NCBI GenBank assembly: GCA_013285505.1 | Contig: CP053450.1 | Coordinates: forward strand, 852,796-916,795 | Direction of reading: 5' to 3' | Source of the DNA: Planctomycetota bacterium | GTDB lineage: Bacteria; Planctomycetota; Phycisphaerae; Phycisphaerales; UBA1924 | Length of the DNA: 64,000 bases | Shown: one piece after another, positions 9,557 to 38,805 of the stretch | Layout: each line of letters begins with the position of its first letter | Numbering within the stretch: the first letter of the stretch is position 1 | Notes under the pieces: model-generated | Database searches by the model: none | Told to the model about the DNA's origin: nothing | The model's input: only the letters and a program-made list of their open reading frames with translations | Made by a program: the position numbers and the translations under genes

Positions 9557-10040
9557 CAAGGGTCGGGGTCGGGGGCCATGGTGGCGGCGGTCGGCGGGGT
9601 GGCCCGGCTGTCGGATCTGTGCTTTCGGGAAAGATTTGGTATTGATCTCGGACTGCAACTGCCCGATACTGCTTGCGTATACGCAGTGGTGATTGGCGCG
9701 GCGACGTGTCCTTTCCCACTGCGGTCAGCCCGCCCACGGTGCGACCCCCGCTTGTCGCGAACCGGGGCTGACCAGTACAAGCCCTCTGGGGCGAAACCCG
9801 AGGGTTCTGCCGCTTGTGCCGGTGCGTTGGATGAGCTAGGCTGTGCCCCGCGCGGATGGGAGTTTCTCATCACGTGGGGAGCGGAAGAAGGAGACGTGAT
9901 CCTGTCTTAATGGGCAGCCGATCCCGTCTGACGCATTTGGGATGCACGTGGGGCATTGAGAGCACGATCCGAGCGTGTGCCCGGTACGGCCGGGCGGCGT
10001 GATCGATCGAAGATTGGCCTTGAGGGGTTCAGGAGTCGTC
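9557..10040 (+). promoter_or_regulatory. 484-nt intergenic leader of the giant surface protein
   Basis: No convincing gene. The stretch 9622-9690 is relatively A/T-rich and could hold a promoter. Downstream, GGTCAGCCC at 9723-9731 pairs exactly with GGGCTGACC at 9765-9773, and AACCC-GA-GGGTT near 9797-9808 makes a smaller hairpin. The region ends with AGGAG at 10031-10035, six bases before the ATG. It is probably a structured 5' leader; no known riboswitch class is recognised. Confidence 0.4.
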
Positions 10041-13000
10041 ATGAAGTCGCGACACAACCGTTCGGACGCACGTTCTCTCCGTCAGCGCGCAGGGCGTGCC
10101 TCTCGCTACGAGGCCCACTTTGAGCCGCTGGAAGAGCGCAAGCTGCTGTTCTCGCTCTCGATCACGCCGGACATGGACGCCGACGGCGACGGGCTCGGCA
10201 CCGCGTCGGCGACCTTCGGGTACACGATCCCCTACGCCGACTCGGACGTGGAAGTGGCCGACGGCGACCCCGAGGCGATCGACGAGGACTTCAACGACGA
10301 GGGCGTCGGCCCGGTCGCGAGCGGCTCGGTCTTCCTCGAGTCGAACATCCGGGTCCTCCACGGGTTCGGGTTTACGAACAACTTCCGGGTCGCCCAGCCG
10401 GACCCGGACGATGACAACATCCGCTACCTCGACATCAACGCGTCGGACGGCAGCTTCTGGACGTTCGAGCCGTGGGTGGTGGACGATGAGACGGGGCAGC
10501 TCATCTCGCGCATCTCGGCGATCCAGGCCAGCTTCACGGTCGGGGGCGGCGACGACAACCAGGGCCTGCTCCCCAACGACTTCCTGGTCGACATCCTGTT
10601 CTTTGACGAGGTGACCGCGACCTACACCGGCGATCAGCTCATCGCCCAGAACACCAGCGGCAACGCCGGCGAGCGCGCCAACGGCGTTGGCACGTTCGTC
10701 TTCGACGCCGACGACACCGCGCAGGCCGCGATGACCGGTATTCGCGTTCGGTCGACGATCGGCGAGAACGTGATCTTCGACGACCTGCAGTTCCTGACGG
10801 CCCCGGGCCTGTTTGCGGACATCGTCCAGGGGCGCATCTTCGGCGCCGAGTTCACCTTCACGGCGCCGATCGGGGCGACGGTCAACATCCTCGACCTCTA
10901 CGGGCGGGAGATGGTGCAGACCATCGCGCTCGGCAAGCCGGACCAGATCAATCTCACGCTGGTTGACGGCGACGACGACGGTGTGCCCAACTTCAACGAC
11001 GGCATCGGCCGCGTGACCTTCAGCGGTGTGGACTCGCGGGCCACGTTCACGATGTTCGGCGGCACGATCGAGTACGACAACACGCTGGGGTTCCAGTACA
11101 CCCGCGTGGACAACTTCCTCGGTCTGTACGACGACTTCGAGGCCGCCGGCTTCGGCTACCACACCGAGTACGACGACGACGGCACGCCGACCAACTTCGG
11201 CCTGCCGGCCGGCCCCGGCTCGGTCATCTTCGGCTCGCCGTTCGTGCGCGACAACTCCGACTCCGGGTCGTACAACCCGGCGGGTTCGGCCGGCGGCAAC
11301 GACGACTTCAACGACCCGGACCAGGGCGTGTTCGTCTCGACCGGCGAGTCGATGGGCACGGTCTACATCCACGGCGCGGTCCACGGCTCGTCGCGGTTCA
11401 CCGGCGCGTTGGGCGACATCTACTTCGGCAACCTCATGGGTTCGCTGACGGTCGACGGCGACCTCGGCTCGGTGATCGTCGGCGGCGACGCGGGTTTCTG
11501 GGTCTCGGACGATGGCGCGAACCAGAACGTTCTGAATGATTCGGTATCCGAGATAACCGTCGGGCGTTCGCTCAGAGAGTACTCGGTCGGCGGCCGATCC
11601 GCGGTCAATATCACTGTGCGCGGCGATCTCAACAGCCCGGCCCTCCGTCCGCCGGGCGAGATCTACCGCCACATCGAGCACGAGAAGATCTACGCCTACA
11701 ACGACGGCGACGTCGAGGACGACGAGGTCTTCATCATCGGCGACATCCTGTTCCCGGCGTCCGACTTCTTCGGCTCGCGCGGCAACCTGTTCGCCTTCAC
11801 CGGCGGCCGCGCGCCGATCTATGTCGATTCCACGTACCGCAACGACACTATCCTGGGCTCGGAGTTCGTCGGCAACGCGTCTTCCGGGATCGAGATCGCT
11901 GGCAACCTCGGCTACGGCGACCCGATCAACGGCGAGGACGGCAACGACGTCTATGCGTTTGTGAGTGACGGCTCGCAGCCCATCGACATCCAGGTCAACA
12001 CGCTCGGCGCCCTTGGCTACGTCCGCGTGGTCGACCAGAACGGTGTGCCGATCGCGGCGACGGTCTTCGAGGACTCGGCGTTCGGCTTCGGGCTCGCCTC
12101 GACCTCGCAGAACCTCCGCTTCACGCCGCCCCGCGCCGGGACGTTCTACCTCGAGATCAGCGACATCGGCGTCAACCTGGTCAACGGCGACAACACCGAC
12201 GGCTGGGAGTACCTGATCACGATCACCGGCCTCACGCCCGTGACGTTCGGCTCGTACCGCACGGGCGGATCGACCGGCATAGCTACCACCACCGGGCCGA
12301 TCGTGCCTTCGCTGCAGACCATCACTGGCGATTTCGGCATCATCCGCACCGGTGTGGGCTATGTGGATTCCAGTGGTACCGACGCGAGCTATGTCGAGAT
12401 CACCAACAGGCCCGACGATGAAGACACACCGTTCGACGTCATCGGTGCCAGTTTCGCGACCTCGGGAAACCTCTATTCGTTCGTCGCCGGGTCTGATGTC
12501 ACGTTTATGGATTTGTTCGTCAACGGCGATCTCGGCGAGTTCTACTCGGGCATGAGCCCGTTTGTCGGCCTCACCGGCGACGGGCTAGAGGGCGACGTCG
12601 TCGGCACATTCCTGACGGTCTCCGGGCGCATCGGGCTCATCGACATCAAGGGCGGCGTCGGCTTGGACAACGACGTCGACGATCCGCCGGTCTTCATCGT
12701 GGGCGTCGGCCTCGATATCCGAACAGGTCTAGACGGCGGTGACGGCAGCATCGGCTCGATCCGCATCGGTGGCGATGTCAACGGCGGCACGCTCACGCTC
12801 AACACGTCGAGCGGCTCTGTCGTCGGCTCGCTGCTGGTCAGCCAGGACCGTGGTGAAGCGGGCGAGGGCATCTACAACGACTTCTTCCTGGGCAGCGATT
12901 TCAATCTCGGCACGGATTCGGACATCCGATTCGTGGACTTCCCGCGCATCGACAACCTCAACAACGCCGACCAGTCGTTCGCGCTGGTGGTCGGCCAGTC

Positions 13001-16000
13001 CGTCGAGTTCGTGGACGACTCTGGCGGCATCTTCCAGATCGAGGTCCAGGGCCCGATCAACGGCGGCGTCGCCGGCCAGATCCGCGTGCTCCCGCTCGAC
13101 AACGGGCAGGGCGTCGCGGTGGCCCGGATCGACGGTGTCGATCTGACCGGCGGTCGTTCGCTCCGCATCACCAGCACCGGTCTGTCCGGCAACAACTCCG
13201 GCGAGGCGCCGATCTCGATCGGCCGCATCGCGATCGCGGCCGCGGACGCCCAGTCCTCCGTGGTCATCGCCGGCACCGTCGAGATCGACGTCTGGCAGAT
13301 CACCAGCGCCGCGGCGCTCAACAGCATCAGCAACCGCACCCCGGGCGGCGACATCGTCGCGATCGACGTGGCGGGTCTGCTCGAGCTGGAGATCAGCGAC
13401 GGCAACCTCGGCCGGACCCAGGCCGCGTCCTACGGCACGCAGGACTTCGGCGTCTTCCTCGGCATCGCCGCGAGCGAGCAGACGGCGGTCGGCGGACCGC
13501 TCGGCGTCTCGGACGCCGCGCTGGCCGACGGCGACGGCGACATCTCGGACGGCTTCCGCCCGGTGGGCGCGATCGACGCGATCTATCTCGAGGACATCGG
13601 CGCTCCGCTGGATCCCTATCTCAACGGCGTGGTGGTCCGCGGCGGGAACCTCAACAACGTGCTCGTCAGCGGGGCGATCGGCGACGTCATCCTGCAGGGC
13701 GGCGGCACCCTCGCCAACGTGGTCGCCGACAACGACTTCATCGCCGGCGTCGGGCAGCTCGACGGCATCTTCGGCAGCATCTACGCCGGGACGATCGACA
13801 CGGTGGACGTGGGCCAGGGCCTGCTCAACTCGGCGATCGCGCCCTTCGCGGGCTCGGGCATCTTCGCCTCAGACGAGATCCGCAACGTCGAGGTCGATGC
13901 GCTGCTCCACGAGGGCGCGTTCCTCGCGGGCGTGGTCATTGCTTCCGACATCGTCCCCGGCTCGGGGCCGCTCGGCGACCCGGACATCGGCGGGATCGAG
14001 ACGATCAACATCGACAGCGGCACGGTCCGCGACGCCTACATCGGCGCGATGAGCATCGACGCGTTCCTGACGTCCTACGTGGGGCTCGGCGAGATCTACA
14101 CGGGCAACATCGGCCGCATCGGCGGCACCGACCTGACGATCTTCCGCTCGCGGATCGAGGCGCTCAACCTCAACAACCTGTCTCTCGGGGACGGCGTGTA
14201 CGACGCCACCGTGACCAACGTCGGGAACAACCTCGGGAACGTGGACGTCCGCGTCGCCCGGAACTCGACCATCGGCGGCGGCGAGTTCGAGTTCGGCTTC
14301 AACCGCATCACCGTCGCGGGCAACATCGGCACCTTCGAGGGCGGTGAGGTCAGCGACCTGAGGGTCGAGGCCGTCGGCCGCGTGACCGGCTCGGTCGAGT
14401 CCGACAGCTGGCGTCGGGTCGAGTTCGTCGTCAACGGCACGGTGCCCACGCTCACGATCGCCGACACCATGGTCGGCACCGAGATCTCCGTCGGCCGGCT
14501 CGGCACGCTGACCGCGGACGCCATCCGCACGAGCCAGATCTCCGTCTCTGGCGAGCTGACGTCTGTCTCGTCCACGACCGAGATCTACAACACCACCATC
14601 GAGGTCACCGGCGCACAGGGCCGGATCGGCTCCGTGACGGCCGCCAGCCGATTCGTCGGCTCGGTCTCCGCGACCGGCCCGATCGGCTCGATCACCGCGA
14701 CCTCGGGCGACCTCGACGTCTCGGTCACCACGACCACCGACCGCGGCACCGTGGGCTCGATCAGCGCCAGCGGCGACCTGATCCTCGAGTCCTCCATCAG
14801 CGCCGGGCTCGGCTCGGTCTCGGCCGGCGGCAACATCGGCAACCCCGGTGACGCGGGCCTGATCTTCGTCAAGGGCGACCTGGCCAGCATCACCGCCGGC
14901 GGGCACCTCTACACCGACGTCCGTGTCGGCCAGACGCTGACCTCGGCGACCATCGGCCGCGCGGTCAACCGCCCGGGCCAGCCCATGGCCCGCTCCGGCT
15001 CGTTCTTTGTCGCCGAAGCGATCGAGTCGATCGCCATCACCGGCGACTTCGGCGGCTCGATCGTCAGCTTCACCAGCGGCATCCAGTCGGTCACCATCAC
15101 CAACGGCTCGCTGCTCTCCACCGGCGGGCTCTCGGCCTACAACGGCAACATCGAGAGCCTCGCCATCACCGGCGGCAACCTCTACGGCGACCTCTACACC
15201 GACCGCTCCATCGTGAGCGTCGTCATCGAGCCCAGCGCCGACGGCGTCTTCGGCGACGTCGGGGTCAACCCGTCGTTCTCCGCCGGTGTCGGCTACGACG
15301 CCTTCCGCGGCCAGCTGCCTCCCGGCGTGGCCCAGACCTCGGGCAAGGACGGGCCGAACATCGTCGCCGAGGTGGACATCGAGAGCTTTGTGGTCTCCGG
15401 CGGCAACATCTACGAGGCGACGCTGTTCGCCGGTCAGACCGTGCGCAGCATCGACGTCACCGGACGCATCATCGCCGGCTTCACCCCCGGCAACACCGGA
15501 CGCCCGATCATCGCGGCCGGCGAAGAGATCACCAGCATCGCCGTCACCAGCAACGTCAACCGCGCGGTCATCCTCGCGGGCGTGCGTTCGCTCGGCGACG
15601 ACCTGGACGCCGGCGGCTTCGGCAGCGACACCGACACCAACCAGTCCGGCCGAATCGTCGGCATGACCGTCGGCGGCAACCTGACCAACACGCAGATCGC
15701 CGCGGGAACCAACCCCGGCAGCGACCGCGAGTACAACACCGGCGACGATCTCCTCGAGATCGGCATCTCCTCGGTCGGCGCGATCTCGGTCGCGGGCACG
15801 ACCGACGGGTCGAGCGTCTACAGCGACCGCCTGCTCGCCGGCTCGAAGGCCGGGGGCAAGCTCGCCTGGGGCGGCCCGTTCCGTCCGGTCAACAACGGCG
15901 ATATCGCCACCTCCACCGCGGGGACGCAGCTGACCAAGGGCGCGAACTTCAACTTCTCCACCAGCTCCGGCGAGGGCTTCATCCGGTTCACCGGCCCCGG

Positions 16001-19000
16001 CAACGCGTTCTTTGACGCGGCCACCAACCGCGTGATCCTGAACGGCACGACCGGCGCCTCCAACCTGCTCGTCCACGCCAACGGCGACAACACGCTCACC
16101 GACTTCGATGTCGTTTCGACCGAGGGCGCTTCGGCCGGGCTCATCCGTGTCGAGGCCAGCCTCCTCGGCGACTCAGACATCGTCGTCGACGAGAACATCA
16201 CCAGCCTCGAGCTCGGGCAGATCCTCGGCACCGGCACCATCCAGGCCGGCGCCTCGCTCACCTCGTTTACCAGCGGCAGCTTCCGCGGCGGGGAGCTCAT
16301 CGCCCGAGACGGCGGCGCAGTCGTCGTCAACGGCGAGTACGGCGACAGCGACAGGGATATCCGCGGCGAGGTCATCATGAGCTTCGTCACGCTCGAGAGC
16401 GCCCGGTTCACCGGCGCCATGCGCGGCGATCTCAGCGTCCGCGAGAGCGTCACCTCCGTGGCGGCCCCGGCCGGCATCTCCGGCGGGCTCGTCCACGCCG
16501 GCGAACGCATCGGCTCGATCACCGCTGACGAGATCAGCCGCACGCGGATCTCCGCCGGCCGATCGCTCGGCACACTCAGCGTGACCAACGACCTCTTCGA
16601 CTCGGCGGTGCTCGTCGGCGGCGACCTCGGCGACGACGCCGAGATCGGCGGCACGGCGTTCGACGCAGACAGCGTCGCCGCGGGCACGATCGGGACGATC
16701 ACCATCGGCGGCGACTTCGTCGTCTCCGACATCGTCGCCGGCTACCTGCGGGGCCCGGACGGGTTCTTCGGCACCGGCGACGACCTGCTCGCCAGCGGCC
16801 GCTCCTCGATCGGCTCGGTCACCATCGGCGGTGACGCGGTCGGGTCCAACACGTTCAGCGAGAGCTACCGGATCGCCTCGACCGGCTCGCTCGGCACGAT
16901 CACCGCGGGCGGCCAGCCGCTCACCAGCGACGGCAACCTCGTCGTCGAGACCAACGCGATCGACCCGCTGCCGATCCAGATCTCCTCGGTCGATGTCCGC
17001 CGCCAGAGCGGCATCTTCGTGGCCGAGCTCCAGTTCAACCAGCCGATCGACTTCTCCAGCCTCGACCGCGCTCTCTCGGTCTCCGAGGTTCGCGGCGTCG
17101 GCGAGATCGAGATCCGCCTGATTCAGGGCGAGGACTTCACTCTCGAGTACAACAGCGATACCCACGTCGTCACCGTCTTCTTCAGCGACGATCTGGTGAC
17201 CCGCGACCTCCCGATCCTCGGCGACCAGCCGGGCCCGGGCGTCTACCGGTTCGAGATAGAGTCCGCGTTCATCCGCGCGACGGCCGTGCGTGCGGGCCTC
17301 GACGGCAACAACGACGGACGAGTCGATGCCGCGGACGACTTCGCCAGCCAGAACATCATCGGCGACGCGGGCGACAAGCTCTCGCCGGAGTCGTTCACCA
17401 TCGCCGGGCGCAACGGCCGGCCGGACAGCCAGGTCGATCTCTACGGCCCGGTCAACCTCAACATCGTGCTCGACGACGCCAACCAGCCCGACGGGCTGCC
17501 CGACGCCAACGAGACGTTCACCATCCGCGGCGCGATCGGCGACAACCCCGACCACGACGTGGACTATTACAGCTTCTCCAGCGACGCCGACCTCTACTCC
17601 ATCACGCTGCAGGCCGGGCAGATCCTCAAGCTCGGCGCGATGCAGGGCCCGGCCCAGCAGACCGGACGCTTCGTCATCCAGCCCAACGGGCAGCTGCTCT
17701 CCGGCTCGACCGCGTTCGGCCTGACGCTCCCGGCCGAGCCGTTCACCTCCGAGAACCGCGAGTTCACCTCGCCGGAGGACTTCCTCATCCGGCAGACCGG
17801 CACCTACCTGATCGTCATCGCCAACAGCACCCAGGGCCTGGCGCCGGGCGTCCTGCCCGACCTGCCCCCGGTCAACGGCGGCGTCGGCGAGTACAACTTC
17901 ACGATCAGCGTCTTCGACGACGGCGACTCCGGCTTTAACGCCGACACCAACGCCGGCGACGGGCAGGACCTGGTCAACGCCCCGGCCCCCTCGGCCTTCG
18001 CGGGCAACGACGGCAAGCTCGGCACGGCCGACGACCGCGTCAGGATCGTCACCGGGGCCTACACGTTCACCTACAGCACCGGCCCCGACGGCGTCGCCGG
18101 GACCTCCGACGACTTCGTCTCGGGCTCCAACGGGAGCAACGTCTCAAGCCTCACCGACGCGCTGGGCACCAGAATGGTCTCGGTCGAGTCGGCCATCGGC
18201 ACGCCCGGGTTCGCCGGAGTGCCCGAGAACTTCTTCCCCGATGTGGACATCTTCCACCTCAACAACGGCAACCCGATCAACGCCGGCACCGTCATCAAGG
18301 CCACCCTCTCGCTCAGCGAGCTCGGCTCCGACCTCGGTTCCTTCGTCGGCACGCTCGACGACCCGTTCCTCATCGACAACTTCGTGCAGTTCTCCATCTT
18401 CGACACGACCAACTCGTCCGGCTCCGACGACGCCCTCCTGCTCTACGCCCCGAGCGACGTCAGCCCGACCGGCGGTGAGACCGGCATCCTCGCCGAGAGC
18501 AACAACGTCGCCTACGGCTTCGACGAGAACGGCGACTTCTACATCGAGTTCGTCGCCCCGGGACGTTTCGACGTCGAGGGCGCGGCCGCCAAGTACGCCA
18601 TCTATGTCCAGGGTGTGCTCAACACCGACTACCGTCTCGAGGTCGTCACCAGCGGCACGCGGGAGCTGACCCAGCGTCGCCAGAACTTCTTCCTCGAGAC
18701 CCGCGGCGGCAACGTGGACTGGCTCGAGGTCAACAACCAGGTCTCCGACGTCAAGGCCTTCGACGCCGGCTCGCTCGGCTTCACCGGCCGGGCCGAGAAC
18801 GGCCAGCGCATCGACCAGTACATCCTCGACAGCGTCACCGCGATCGTGCAGGACACCTTCGACGGTGTCGTCAGCGGACCCGGCGGTGACGGTGTGTTCG
18901 GCACATCCGACGACGAGCGTGGCCTTGACATCAATGTCTCGACCAACCCCGCCGACTTCGACTTCCAGGACTACTCCACCATCTTCCTCTCGTCGATGTT

Positions 19001-19469
19001 TGATCCGCGCGAGCCGCTCTTCTCGGTGGACATCGCCGAGGTGGCTTCCGCGGCGGTGTTTGGTGAGCTCTTCAGCCAGCTCTACGGCGTCTCCCAGCAC
19101 GCCGATCCCGGCAACGCCGACCGCACCGACGACGCGATCGTCTTCATCCCCAACCTCTCCATCCTCGACTACTCCCCGTCGACGGCCGACCTCGAGTCGT
19201 TCATCCAGTCGCTGGCCGCGGTCACCGCGCGGCGTGCCGGCGAGCTCATGGGCCTCCGCCTCACCGAGGCGTACGACCCGACGCAGGACGTCTACGACGT
19301 GCAGGCCGTGAACTCGGTCGAGGACGTGCCCGGCGACTCCGGCGAGTACGAGTTCCTCAGCAACGCCCGCCGCCTCTCGCCCTCCGGCGACGCGATCGCC
19401 GACAGCGACTTCTTCCTCGGCTACCAGGACGCCTCCGCCCTGCTCCGCCTCTACACCCGCAACGGCTGA
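10041..19469 (+). CDS. Giant LEPR-XLL surface protein with beta-helix repeats and degenerate metzincin-like C-terminus
   Basis: A 3,142-residue cell-surface or extracellular protein. ATG 10041 follows AGGAG and gives a basic N-terminus leading to the planctomycete LEPR-XLL motif (FEPLEERKLLFS, residues 33-44); no ordinary Sec signal is evident. Then come calcium-type DxDxDG motifs, a PPC-like domain (about 635-735), a very long run of short hydrophobic/Gly repeats of the type GSVTIGGDVxGS (about 750-2300) expected to fold as parallel beta-helix, an Ig-like stretch, an EF-hand-like DGNNDGRVDAADD (about 2422), a second PPC-like domain (about 2510-2620) and repeated DGxxGTxDD motifs. Near residue 3061 VTARRAGELMGLRL resembles a metzincin zinc helix that has lost all its ligands. 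It stands alone, between its own leader and terminator. Adhesion or a structural role is inference. Confidence 0.85.
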   Translation: MKSRHNRSDARSLRQRAGRASRYEAHFEPLEERKLLFSLSITPDMDADGDGLGTASATFGYTIPYADSDVEVADGDPEAIDEDFNDEGVGPVASGSVFLESNIRVLHGFGFTNNFRVAQPDPDDDNIRYLDINASDGSFWTFEPWVVDDETGQLISRISAIQASFTVGGGDDNQGLLPNDFLVDILFFDEVTATYTGDQLIAQNTSGNAGERANGVGTFVFDADDTAQAAMTGIRVRSTIGENVIFDDLQFLTAPGLFADIVQGRIFGAEFTFTAPIGATVNILDLYGREMVQTIALGKPDQINLTLVDGDDDGVPNFNDGIGRVTFSGVDSRATFTMFGGTIEYDNTLGFQYTRVDNFLGLYDDFEAAGFGYHTEYDDDGTPTNFGLPAGPGSVIFGSPFVRDNSDSGSYNPAGSAGGNDDFNDPDQGVFVSTGESMGTVYIHGAVHGSSRFTGALGDIYFGNLMGSLTVDGDLGSVIVGGDAGFWVSDDGANQNVLNDSVSEITVGRSLREYSVGGRSAVNITVRGDLNSPALRPPGEIYRHIEHEKIYAYNDGDVEDDEVFIIGDILFPASDFFGSRGNLFAFTGGRAPIYVDSTYRNDTILGSEFVGNASSGIEIAGNLGYGDPINGEDGNDVYAFVSDGSQPIDIQVNTLGALGYVRVVDQNGVPIAATVFEDSAFGFGLASTSQNLRFTPPRAGTFYLEISDIGVNLVNGDNTDGWEYLITITGLTPVTFGSYRTGGSTGIATTTGPIVPSLQTITGDFGIIRTGVGYVDSSGTDASYVEITNRPDDEDTPFDVIGASFATSGNLYSFVAGSDVTFMDLFVNGDLGEFYSGMSPFVGLTGDGLEGDVVGTFLTVSGRIGLIDIKGGVGLDNDVDDPPVFIVGVGLDIRTGLDGGDGSIGSIRIGGDVNGGTLTLNTSSGSVVGSLLVSQDRGEAGEGIYNDFFLGSDFNLGTDSDIRFVDFPRIDNLNNADQSFALVVGQSVEFVDDSGGIFQIEVQGPINGGVAGQIRVLPLDNGQGVAVARIDGVDLTGGRSLRITSTGLSGNNSGEAPISIGRIAIAAADAQSSVVIAGTVEIDVWQITSAAALNSISNRTPGGDIVAIDVAGLLELEISDGNLGRTQAASYGTQDFGVFLGIAASEQTAVGGPLGVSDAALADGDGDISDGFRPVGAIDAIYLEDIGAPLDPYLNGVVVRGGNLNNVLVSGAIGDVILQGGGTLANVVADNDFIAGVGQLDGIFGSIYAGTIDTVDVGQGLLNSAIAPFAGSGIFASDEIRNVEVDALLHEGAFLAGVVIASDIVPGSGPLGDPDIGGIETINIDSGTVRDAYIGAMSIDAFLTSYVGLGEIYTGNIGRIGGTDLTIFRSRIEALNLNNLSLGDGVYDATVTNVGNNLGNVDVRVARNSTIGGGEFEFGFNRITVAGNIGTFEGGEVSDLRVEAVGRVTGSVESDSWRRVEFVVNGTVPTLTIADTMVGTEISVGRLGTLTADAIRTSQISVSGELTSVSSTTEIYNTTIEVTGAQGRIGSVTAASRFVGSVSATGPIGSITATSGDLDVSVTTTTDRGTVGSISASGDLILESSISAGLGSVSAGGNIGNPGDAGLIFVKGDLASITAGGHLYTDVRVGQTLTSATIGRAVNRPGQPMARSGSFFVAEAIESIAITGDFGGSIVSFTSGIQSVTITNGSLLSTGGLSAYNGNIESLAITGGNLYGDLYTDRSIVSVVIEPSADGVFGDVGVNPSFSAGVGYDAFRGQLPPGVAQTSGKDGPNIVAEVDIESFVVSGGNIYEATLFAGQTVRSIDVTGRIIAGFTPGNTGRPIIAAGEEITSIAVTSNVNRAVILAGVRSLGDDLDAGGFGSDTDTNQSGRIVGMTVGGNLTNTQIAAGTNPGSDREYNTGDDLLEIGISSVGAISVAGTTDGSSVYSDRLLAGSKAGGKLAWGGPFRPVNNGDIATSTAGTQLTKGANFNFSTSSGEGFIRFTGPGNAFFDAATNRVILNGTTGASNLLVHANGDNTLTDFDVVSTEGASAGLIRVEASLLGDSDIVVDENITSLELGQILGTGTIQAGASLTSFTSGSFRGGELIARDGGAVVVNGEYGDSDRDIRGEVIMSFVTLESARFTGAMRGDLSVRESVTSVAAPAGISGGLVHAGERIGSITADEISRTRISAGRSLGTLSVTNDLFDSAVLVGGDLGDDAEIGGTAFDADSVAAGTIGTITIGGDFVVSDIVAGYLRGPDGFFGTGDDLLASGRSSIGSVTIGGDAVGSNTFSESYRIASTGSLGTITAGGQPLTSDGNLVVETNAIDPLPIQISSVDVRRQSGIFVAELQFNQPIDFSSLDRALSVSEVRGVGEIEIRLIQGEDFTLEYNSDTHVVTVFFSDDLVTRDLPILGDQPGPGVYRFEIESAFIRATAVRAGLDGNNDGRVDAADDFASQNIIGDAGDKLSPESFTIAGRNGRPDSQVDLYGPVNLNIVLDDANQPDGLPDANETFTIRGAIGDNPDHDVDYYSFSSDADLYSITLQAGQILKLGAMQGPAQQTGRFVIQPNGQLLSGSTAFGLTLPAEPFTSENREFTSPEDFLIRQTGTYLIVIANSTQGLAPGVLPDLPPVNGGVGEYNFTISVFDDGDSGFNADTNAGDGQDLVNAPAPSAFAGNDGKLGTADDRVRIVTGAYTFTYSTGPDGVAGTSDDFVSGSNGSNVSSLTDALGTRMVSVESAIGTPGFAGVPENFFPDVDIFHLNNGNPINAGTVIKATLSLSELGSDLGSFVGTLDDPFLIDNFVQFSIFDTTNSSGSDDALLLYAPSDVSPTGGETGILAESNNVAYGFDENGDFYIEFVAPGRFDVEGAAAKYAIYVQGVLNTDYRLEVVTSGTRELTQRRQNFFLETRGGNVDWLEVNNQVSDVKAFDAGSLGFTGRAENGQRIDQYILDSVTAIVQDTFDGVVSGPGGDGVFGTSDDERGLDINVSTNPADFDFQDYSTIFLSSMFDPREPLFSVDIAEVASAAVFGELFSQLYGVSQHADPGNADRTDDAIVFIPNLSILDYSPSTADLESFIQSLAAVTARRAGELMGLRLTEAYDPTQDVYDVQAVNSVEDVPGDSGEYEFLSNARRLSPSGDAIADSDFFLGYQDASALLRLYTRNG

Positions 19470-19506
19470 TACCAATCAGAGAGCAAGCGTCCGGCACCGG
19501 ACGAGC

Positions 19507-19541
19507 AAGGCCCGTGGCCACAAGCCACGGGCCTTCTTTCT
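19507..19541 (+). terminator. Rho-independent terminator of the giant gene
   Basis: Perfect 12-bp stem AAGGCCCGTGGC (19507-19518) and GCCACGGGCCTT (19524-19535) with a 5-nt loop and a T-rich tail CTTTCTT. It lies 38 nt after the giant gene stop. Confidence 0.88.
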
Positions 19542-19569
19542 TGCGCGCCGGAGCCCTGCGTGACGCGGA

Positions 19570-21489
19570 TCAACCGTGACGGCAACCGCGCGTGGCGGTG
19601 GTGACGGGAATCGCGGCCTGCGAACGCACCGTGCGGCTGGCCGATCTCCGCGACGAGGAGTAGCAGGCCGCGATTCCCGTCACCACCGCCACGCGCCGGC
19701 CACTCGATCTCGACACGCTCGGCCCGCTCAGCGTCGCCCAGACCGACGTGCACCACGAAGTCCATCTGCTTGCCCTGGTGCCCGCCGATCCCGATGAGCT
19801 GGCGGCTCTGCGTCACCCGCTCGCCGCGGATGACCGCCGTCACCCGCACGGTCGCGCCGAGGGCGTCACGAGCGACCGCCGCGAGCCGGTCCTCCGGGCT
19901 CGCAGCCTCGCGCGGGCTCGGATCGCCCTCCAGCCGCAAGACGAGCGCACGCCCCAGCCCCCCTGTCGCTGGCCTGGTTGAGATACACCCGCACCCGCGG
20001 CTCGCGTCCCTCGCGCTGATCCGGGCGGAGCCGGTTGAAGCTCTGCCCGACCATGATGTCCAGATCCCCGTCGCCGTCGACATCGGCGAGCGACGGCTGC
20101 CCCGCCCCGATGTGGCCGATCCCCACCCAGCTCGTGATGTCGCGGAACGTGCCGTCGGTCTGCTGCCGGTAGATCCGCAGCCGCTGGTCGTCCGGGTAGT
20201 CGCTCGAACACAGCAACAGATCAAGCCGCCCGTCCAGATCGAAATCGGCCAGCTCGCAGAAGATGTCGCCCTGGTTCCAGCTCCGGATCGTCGGGTCGGT
20301 GGGGACACGGTCCACGCTCAACTCCGGCGGGCTCGCAAACACCGTCCGCGTCACCCACGGTTCCGACTCATCCACGACCTCCTGCCGCTGCACGAGGAAC
20401 CGCGACCGGTCGCTGCTCTCTCCCGCCCAGCCGTGGGTGATCTCGGCGAGGAACAGGTCGAAGTCGCCGTCGTTGTCGATGTCGCCGACAGCCGCGTCGA
20501 ACGTGTTGCCGTTGGCGCGGAAGGGCTTCTCGTCGTCTCGGTCAAAGCGGGCGTCGGTCTTGGCGCGTTCCTTGAGCCATTCCGGGTGGCGGCCGTGGCG
20601 GATGGCGTCGCCGTCCAGGCCCGCCTCGGGGGCGACATCACGCATCCTCGGCGCGGGCAACTCCCGCATGTATTCATCCAGCGGACGGTCGACATAGAGC
20701 AGCCGGTTCCAACGCCTGCCGTAGTTCAGGTCGAGCAGCTGCGACCAGGCGTAGGTGTTCGAAGCCACCCCGCCGGCCGGGAATCCCAGTTGCGCGATCA
20801 TCACGCCGTAGGTCGGACGCCCCGCCGGATCGGTACGGTCGTCAAACTCCCGGCCCGCGTCGGGAAGGAGCCGAGGATTAGCCGCGACAGGACCATCGTC
20901 CACACCGGGCCCAAAGAGCACCTGGTTGGTAAAGCCCTCCAGACTGGGCCCGTACTTGACATACCAGTTCCCGAGGTAGACATCGAGTGCCGTCCTTGTC
21001 CACATCGCCCACCGCCACCGCCGCGGTGGTCGCGGGCGTCGCCGCATCGATCACCTCCCACGCCCCGAGCGGTGAGCCGAATGTCCCGTCCCCGTTCCCG
21101 CGCAGCCACGCCGTCTTCTCCGGCCCCTCGGTCGGCGGCTCGTAGTTGTCCGCGTTGATGTCGAGGTACCGCGTCCACACGCAGTCCTTGGTGCCGTCGT
21201 TGTCGAGGTCGGCAAACACCGCGATGTCGCCGCGTCGGAACGCCGGGAGCCCGGACGCCTCCACCTCGACAAACCGCACCCCCCGAGGTGCCTCGGAGTC
21301 CGCCGTGTTGAGGAACACCCGGTTCCGACCGATCACCGCGTCCGGCCGCCCGTCGTTGTTGAGATCCACAAAGCAGCAGTGGGGGCCCGCCAGACCCTCA
21401 AGCCCGAGGTCCGTCGTCGCCTCGACAAACGCCAACTGTCCGCACGCAGTCCCGGCGCAGAGCGCCACGATCATGGCTTGTTTCAGCAT
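19570..21489 (-). CDS. FG-GAP/VCBS repeat protein with ASPIC/UnbV domain, frameshifted as assembled
   Basis: Secreted beta-propeller protein. It starts at ATG 21489 with a signal peptide (MLKQAMIVALCAGTACG) and carries FG-GAP/VCBS calcium loops: DLNNDGRPDAVIG, DLDNDGTKD, DVDKDG, DIDNDGDFDLFLAE, DFDLDGRLDLLL and DVDGDGDLDIMVG. The C-terminal ASPIC/UnbV domain shows LGATVRV, SRQLIGIGGHQGKQ and HVGLGDAERAERVEIEWP. Three single-base insertions break the frame: near 20985-20992, in the C6 run 19958-19963, and near 19694-19702. After correction the present sequence ends at 19570 with an atypical tail; flipping the 41-bp loop between the inverted repeats would give the canonical ending. Ligand unknown. 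It is convergent with the giant surface protein. Confidence 0.75.
19588..19696. repeat. 34-bp perfect inverted repeat flanking a 41-bp loop
   Basis: Arms 19588-19621 and 19663-19696 are exact reverse complements; the spacer is 19622-19662. The repeat sits in the last codons of the minus-strand ASPIC/UnbV gene. Reading plus from GTG 19592 through the left arm and loop gives VAVVTGIAAC followed by ERTVRLADLRDEE and TAG at 19661-19663, which matches the usual end of UnbV domains. On the gene strand the loop is therefore backwards. Confidence 0.9.
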
Positions 21490-30818: not shown

Positions 30819-30897
30819 GTGTGGCATGCCCACGCTTCGTGGGCATGTGCCTTCATGCTGCACAGTTCCATGCCCACGAAGCGTGGGCATGCCACAC
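30819..30897. repeat. REP-like inverted repeat, copy 1
   Basis: 29-bp arms 30819-30847 and 30869-30897 are perfect reverse complements (starting GTGTGGCATGCCCACG). Each arm is itself a near-palindrome (CATGCCCACG / CGTGGGCATG). It lies between convergent genes, where it may also end transcription. A diverged second copy is at 35944-36025. Confidence 0.92.
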
Positions 30898-35943: not shown

Positions 35944-36025
35944 GTGTGGCATGCCCACGCTTCGTGGGCATGGGGCCTGGGAGTGAAGTCAAAGCACACG
36001 CCCACGAAGCGTGGGCATGCCTCAC
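35944..36025. repeat. REP-like inverted repeat, copy 2
   Basis: The left arm 35944-35972 is identical to the left arm of the copy at 30819; the right arm 35997-36025 differs at two positions and the spacer is unrelated. It lies upstream of the pseudouridine synthase and downstream of the gluzincin gene. Confidence 0.9.
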
Positions 36026-36092: not shown

Positions 36093-38805
36093 TCACCCCG
36101 CCATCTTCGCCCGGATCGCCTCCAACCGCCGCGTATGGATCTCCCGGTCGGGCTCCAGCACCGCCAGCGCCTGAAGCTCGTGCTCGGCCGCCGCCAGATC
36201 GCCCTTGAGCAGCGCGATCCTCGCCGCCTGCTCCCGCGTCGCAGCATCAAACGGCGCGATCATCCTCGCCCGCATCGCCTTGGCCCACGCCTCGTCCATC
36301 CGGCCCAGCTTGGCATACCGCTCGGCCAGCGCCAACGCATACGCCGGCGAACGCATCTCACGAGCATCCAGAAACTCCAGGTGCTCGATTGCGCGCGCAA
36401 GATTCTCCTTGCCCGAGTCACCCTCCGCATCGCCGAGCTGCCCCTCCAACGCCAGCCTCGCCAGCATCCGACGCGGCATCGGGTCCACCGGACACGCATC
36501 CACATACCGCTCCAGCACCGGCACCATCCCCGCCGTCGGCTCGCCGCCCGCATCGCGCAGCTCCAGCTGCACCGCCACCCGCAACAGGTCCGGGTGCCCC
36601 GGATGCTCGGCGAGCGACGCCTCGACATCCTCCCGCGAGACCGATTCCGGATCAGGGATCAACTCACCCAGCTTCGGCACGCCTTCGCCCAGCATCATCC
36701 CGACGTCCACAAGCTCCCCGTGCGCCCACGCCTTGAAGTCCTCGAAGAACCGCTCCGGCGAGATCTCGAGCACCCGCTCCATCGCGACCTGCTCGCTGAG
36801 CCCCTCCGCGTACAGGTCCATCAGCGCCAGCGGCGCCTCCACGCCAAACCGCTCGACCATGTACTCATACATCCAGTCACCCTGGGCGTACGCCTGCGTC
36901 CGGTCGGTCGGCTTGATCGGGCGAACGAACCGCAGGCTAATCGTGTCCATGTCAAACAGCGTGCCCGTGCGGTACGCCTGCGCCAGCAGCGTCCACCACT
37001 CCGCCCGACGGGGCAGCCCCTCGCCCCACACCGCCGCGGCCTCGGTAAACCAGTGCGGGATGCGGTTCCGCGTCCGCGACAGCGTCACCGTGTGGATGTA
37101 CTCGTGCCGCACCGTCCGTGCCCAGTCGTACGGCCCCGCCTTGTTGCCCGGGCCCGACCGCGGCGCCTCCATCGCGATCACCGGCCCAGTCGCCGCCGCC
37201 ATCGTGTGGATCTGCGTCATCCCCGTGATCCGCACCGCAAAGCTCGCGTGATCCGGCATCACCTCGATCACCGTCGGCACCGACGGCTCGTGGTCAAACA
37301 TCTCCGGCCCGCACACATCCGCGTAGATCGCCTCGAGCACCGGCAGCATCTCACCGGCCAGCACCTCGTCCACGCCCGGCTTGTACCGCACCACAAAGTG
37401 CTCGCTCTCCAGCTCCGAGTAGGTCCCGATCTCTTCGACCAGCGCCAGACTGTTCCGCGCGCGCACGTTGAAGGGGTCCAGCGCCCCGGCCTTCTGCAGC
37501 GCGTCCTTGGCCCGCAGGTCGCGTCCGGCCTGCATCTCGAGCAGGCCGAGCTCGATCCACGGGGCTGCGAGCGTCGGCAGCCGCGCCGCCGCCCGCTCCA
37601 GATAGTCCGCCGCCTCGGCGTATTGCCGCGCCTCAGACAACGCCTTGCCCACCGCAAAGAGCGCCTCGGGCGAGCCGGCGTCCTCCGCCGCGACAGCCCC
37701 GCCCGCGTTCAACGCATCGAACGCCGCCAGCAACGACTCGGTGCGTTCGGTGTCAAACCGCACCGCCGCCGTCGCCGCCCGCCGCGAGCAGCTCGCGGTG
37801 TTTCGGATAAGTCGCCAGCGCCCGGGAGAGCACCCACTCGGCCAGCGCCGGATCACGCCGGGCGCGCGCCGCCCGGGCCCGCACCACCGCCGCGTCCGCC
37901 GAGCCCTCCGCCAGCGCGTCCAGCCGCAGGGCCACGCTCTCGGCCCTGTCAAAGTCGAACCCGCTCACCCCCATGTCGCCGAGCAGGCGCCAGCGCGCGC
38001 ACTTCGGGTTCAGGCTCAGCACCTCCGTCACCGCCGCCTGCGCCTCGGGCGCGTTGTCCTTCTCCCACAGCACCTCGGCCTCGACCAGCCGGGCCTTCCA
38101 CGACAGCCGGTCCAGCTCGTTCTTGGCCCGCCCGAGCAACTGCATCAGCGTCTGGAAGTCGGCACTGGCCTGCCCGGCCCGCGCCGGCCCGCGCAGGCGG
38201 TTGCGCACCATCAGCGCGCGCACGCCCTCGGCCAGCTCGTCGCCCGAGGTCACCTCGCGCGAGCCGAGCCGTGCCACCAGCGGGTCGAGCGCCGCATCCG
38301 CCTCGTCAAACCGTCCGAGTGTCTCGAGCGCCTCGGCCCGGATGCGGATCGCCCGCACACTCCCCTCGCCGGCGAGCATGGCGATCGCGTTGTCCAGTTC
38401 GCCCCGCAGTGCCGCGGCTTCTGCCCGGTCCAGCAGGTCGGCACCCTCGTCGGCGAGCGACTCGTCGTCGAGAGCCCCGCGCACCAGCGCCGCCTCGCGC
38501 GCAGGGCCGCCGTGGTCAGGTCGCTCTCCTCCCACACGCCGTGCCGCATCCGGGCGTCGAGTTTCTGCTCGTCGGTCAGGAGCGCGCCGTCCAGCATGCG
38601 GCGGACGCTGGCCGCGAGCTCCGGCGGGCGCATCGCCCCGGCGTTGTCCGACCCCGCGGCCTGCGCCTGCCGATCAATCTGGTCGAGCAGCCGCTCGGCG
38701 ATGCCGTCCTGCGCGCACCGTGCCGCAGAGAAGCCCGCCCACCGCCGACGCGATCGTCAGCGTCTGCACCGCGCCCGCCCGCACCGCCCGAAGTTCGTTG
38801 CGCAT
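36093..38805 (-). CDS. Secreted gluzincin (peptidase MA-like) with TPR regions, frameshifted as assembled
   Basis: About 900 aa in four frames. ATG 38805 starts a signal peptide (MRNELRAVRAG...IASAVGGLLCG); the following frames give DGIAERLLDQIDRQAQ, ALVRGALDDESLADEG and FDTERTESLLAAFDALNAG. Breaks lie near 38712-38716 (one extra base), 38490-38500 (two, in a GC repeat) and 37765-37790 (one). TPR-like helices surround a zinc peptidase core: HEYIH in RTVRHEYIHTVTL, followed after about 17 residues by E in HWFTEAAAVWGEG, the HExxH...E pattern of gluzincins. More TPR-like helices end the protein. It starts 3 nt after the LolA-like gene, so the two form an operon. Substrate unknown. Confidence 0.75.

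Follow-up and report, generated by a model that had tools for sequence, protein, structure and literature searches.

A minus-strand gene for an FG-GAP/UnbV_ASPIC repeat protein (19451–21489; positions are those of the window, the whole stretch of 64,000 nucleotides that was analysed, contig positions 852796–916795) ends in a perfect 34-bp inverted repeat, the loop of which appears to have been turned around relative to the gene. Most likely the arrangement arose through a single accident of copying, or through a mistake in an assembly rich in indels, and is not a genetic switch. On balance we favour a single short template-switch mutation, intermolecular in kind, at the 3′ end of the gene. This was among the origins that an earlier note on this DNA had offered and is the one that fits best; another, an artefact, is a live rival.

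The arms of the repeat lie at 19588–19621 and 19663–19696, are complementary at 34 of 34 positions and enclose a loop of 41 nt (19622–19662), just as first described. The gene-proximal arm (19663–19696, minus strand) holds the UnbV tail at its original coding position and reads RVAVVTGIAAC in its own frame. The distal arm (19588–19621, plus strand), its perfect inverted copy, is intergenic and absent in relatives. Read on the plus strand, the loop gives ERTVRLADLRDEE and the first two bases of a TAG stop codon, which takes the first base of the right arm as its third. The plus strand from 19592 to 19663 reads VAVVTGIAACERTVRLADLRDEE-TAG and matches query residues 579–604, apparently the natural C-terminal coding segment in displaced form. 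If this segment is transcribed, a very stable hairpin is predicted (−112.6 kcal/mol for 161 nt, z = −9.75), and translation would give a protein with an unrelated tail; we claim no function for either.

By our estimate the chance expectation for such a repeat is negligible, and we do not regard it as a chance occurrence. With loops of up to 400 nt allowed, no other perfect inverted repeat in the 664 kb sampled from the genome (~16% of the total) is as long; the longest in 400 kb of a congener, G001, is 29 nt. A genome-wide BLAST search returned the arm at no third site, on which ground an interspersed repeat was rejected. Within the sampled sequence the arm core has only its own two copies, and most other long repeats share their core with sites elsewhere and seem to be dispersed. 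A REP-type element was rejected because the arms consist of coding sequence that is not repeated elsewhere, in contrast to the repeats at 30819–30897 and 35944–36025. These two are related hairpin elements with the core GGCATGCCCACGCTTCGTGGGCATG and a further copy around contig position 647,200, and look like a dispersed REP-type repeat of the genome. A role for the 34-bp repeat as transcription terminator was also rejected, since a separate hairpin with a T-run follows at 19508–19543; this is the likely terminator between the convergent genes and is present in another congener, G003.

The natural end of the gene can be read from its relatives. The window ORF at 19451–20308 matches PF07593 at 44.7 bits (cut-off 23.4), in agreement with the ASPIC/UnbV assignment made for this minus-strand gene in the earlier note, and the G003 orthologue matches PF07593 and PF13517. 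In three same-genus genomes (G001–G003) the gene is intact in one frame, with 73–77% protein identity, and the WP motif is followed by the tails SRERMVTVLENVEAGSRLISLSEHPSPVDD, SRERVVTVLEGVEAGTRVVRRAESEEKE and CRERRVTVLEHVAAGTHTVRLGESEGSE. The plus-strand VAVVTGIAACERTVRLADLRDEE of the window aligns gap-free with CRERRVTVLEHVAAGTHTVRLGESEGSE up to the last residues of the latter, and its stop lies at a distance after the WP motif similar to that in relatives. For the loop part, comparison with G001 (THTVRLGESEGSE against ERTVRLADLRDEE) gave a score of 22, reached by 0.45% of shuffles, and comparison with G002 a score of 24, reached by 2.6%; the same test found no significant similarity to G003. 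A profile HMM did not separate the natural tail (39.5 bits) from the present ones (37.6 and 36.7 bits), the tail being too short and variable, and support for a loop inverted relative to the gene comes from the pairwise comparison with G001. At the protein level, and with congeneric species as reference, the loop is thus supported as the reverse complement of the ancestral sequence. The intact orthologues bear out both the claim that arm plus loop on the plus strand give the usual UnbV ending and the claim that the loop is inverted.

Neither the 34-bp repeat nor a second, inverted arm was found at the gene end in G001–G003 or in 20 wider relatives (23 loci, all from other species). Comparison of the locus with relatives, a check suggested together with those claims, therefore gave natural C-termini that fit the flipped loop and no repeat beside them. 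At the position of the gene-side arm orthologues encode the corresponding stretch of the protein, and we therefore regard this arm as ancestral; the distal arm occupies the interval from the gene to the terminator-like hairpin, in which the G003 sequence is unrelated. The G001 locus has a repeat of its own, a 26-nt perfect inverted repeat with a 14-nt loop ~139–204 nt after the WP motif, which is a dispersed GTGGTGCAGGCTTCCAGCCTGCAC element of the G001 genome.

A template switch would produce this anatomy as follows. A replication fork would copy the gene to the end of tail segment A; at the stop codon the nascent strand would move to the opposite (sister) strand, copy back through the loop (L) and A, and rejoin the original template beyond the gene. 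On the gene strand X-A-L-Z would become X-A-L′-A′-Z, the loop now reversed in orientation and A repeated downstream as a perfect 34-bp inverted copy. Because L′A′ is the reverse complement of A-L, this is the expected product of one switch-and-return. In favour of the template switch, one arm is coding and in its original place, and the other is intergenic and not conserved in G003. Against it stand an apparent loss of ~11 nt at the edge of the gene-side arm, which a simple four-point model leaves unexplained, an error-prone assembly and an ancestral state that is deduced from other species only. What the sequences show directly is the anatomy, the natural A-L reading on the opposite strand and the lack of an inverted copy in relatives; the process, and the presence of the mutation in the organism itself, we infer.

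Comparable changes have been described in yeast genes, where Abraham and Hazkani-Covo explain arm homogenization with spacer inversion by intermolecular template switching, one event having lengthened an arm from 5 to 16 bp (PMC8604942). As in REG2 and SYG1 of that study, the repeat here is perfect, lies in or at a protein gene and has a spacer inverted against the ancestral coding strand. The yeast arms are ~10–16 bp long with spacers of a few bp, whereas arm and loop here measure 34 nt and 41 nt, a large difference in size that counts against the template switch, and our ancestral state comes from congeneric species, not strains. Inverted loops of bacterial rRNA hairpins have also been attributed to template switching (PMC8794818); there, too, perfectly paired hairpins have had their loops reversed in place and bacterial cases are included, but the loops are mostly 4 nt, up to 7–8 nt, and belong to structural RNA. 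If real, the event at the UnbV gene is larger than the coding cases of these papers and would be a clear bacterial case of one template switch creating a long perfect hairpin and a rewritten protein C-terminus. Nine of ten spacer inversions in the yeast study occurred in already perfect repeats (PMC8604942), a point in favour of an older inverted repeat whose loop was flipped later by template switching or recombination, with arm duplication and loop inversion as separate steps. We hold this to be unlikely: relatives have no repeat at the corresponding place, and with zero differences between the arms an earlier step is unneeded.

A further rival is a programmed switch, in which site-specific recombination at the 34-bp repeats would change the C-terminus. 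Invertons are usually flanked by inverted repeats of 10–40 nt, often with an invertase nearby (PMC11892184), and the perfect repeat at the UnbV gene has an inverton-like length and flanks a stretch whose flip exchanges natural and novel tails. Unlike invertons, it is seen in one orientation (the loop is single copy in the assembly), has no invertase nearby, is not conserved and has a very short loop. The genome does encode recombinases, with 18 tyrosine- and 2 serine-recombinase domain matches, but the domain search found no PF00589 or PF00239 match in the 64-kb window; the nearest tyrosine-recombinase (integrase) match is ~71 kb away and both serine recombinases are >1.2 Mb away, although such a distant enzyme might act in trans. 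A 41-nt loop is very short for recombinase synapsis. The arms are single copy, and a flip would not restore the frame. With the repeat also missing from the three same-genus orthologues and the 20 wider relatives, the invertible switch proposed in the earlier note is highly improbable. A recombinase-independent or trans-acting 41-bp micro-inverton, toggling the C-terminus of the FG-GAP/UnbV protein in this Phycisphaerales-like planctomycete, with the frame breaks as sequencing errors, is likewise very improbable.

The UnbV gene is broken near 20985, 19955 (at a run of six G) and 19690, three frame breaks that the first description of the gene end had overlooked. The frame of the gene body (…VEIEWPAR) is not that of the arm: it gives EWPARGGGDGNRGLLLLVAEIG and not VAVVTGIAAC, running as GGGDGNRGLLLLVAEIG... 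until the stop at 19451. Read in the frame of the arm itself, the gene strand gives VAVVTGIAAC, loop-derived residues and a TGA ending at 19570; the reading to a stop at 19570 reported at first is thus right for the arm and wrong for the gene body. From the WP to the VTV motif there are five residues in relatives against four bases in the window, so that ~11 nt seem to have been lost, or a smaller indel to have occurred, precisely where the gene-side arm has its outer edge. Since the frame breaks at this edge and twice more upstream, flipping the loop alone would not restore the protein as assembled, contrary to what had been claimed.

The frame breaks bear on the quality of the assembly, a single contig of 4,123,950 bases with 86.11% completeness and 1.91% contamination. 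In G001 and G003 rpoC is a single frame, whereas here (contig 1487916–1492077) its last part is in another. Two further large genes, for class I tRNA synthetases of the valS superfamily (contig 2652818–2655279 and 528528–531204), are single frames of ~1000 codons in relatives and are split by frame breaks into 549/603 and 696/731 in the present genome; judged by size they are probably ileS and leuS. valS itself is intact, as is the gene of the replicative polymerase. That essential genes are split suggests residual indel errors of the sort that long-read assemblies typically have (we infer the platform), and the frame breaks may contribute to the 86% completeness. The split genes also make the UnbV frame breaks weak evidence of decay: these are probably sequencing errors, pseudogene decay being less likely as their source. 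Relative to G003 there are 13 frame changes in 52 kb, a raw count inflated by antisense open frames, and the argument is therefore built on the genes named above. Compared with G003, the minus-strand gene at 36102–38717 has probably lost 1 nt near 38495 and changes frame again near 37785, both probable further indel errors.

With essential genes split, an artefact at the repeat must be considered: a chimeric or fold-back read, or consensus building, may have created the structure locally, the gene end being normal in the organism. Besides the split genes and the breaks in the UnbV gene itself, this doubtful but tenable origin draws on fold-back reads, known from Nanopore genomic DNA at about 0.55–0.6% (PMC12870357). 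Known fold-backs, however, stay on the reverse complement instead of rejoining the template after 75 nt; the 664 kb contain no further non-repeat inverted repeat of such size, so such structures do not abound in the assembly; and Nanopore sequencing would itself be an assumption. Were the structure an artefact, it would caution against calling phase-variable switches from indel-rich single-contig assemblies. The importance of the structure is small unless both orientations occur in reads.

On the far side of the terminator-like hairpin lies a plus-strand ORF of 3164 codons (9975–19469), syntenic and intact in G003. Near its N terminus it carries FEPLEERKLL, which we take to resemble planctomycete LEPRxLL-type signals.
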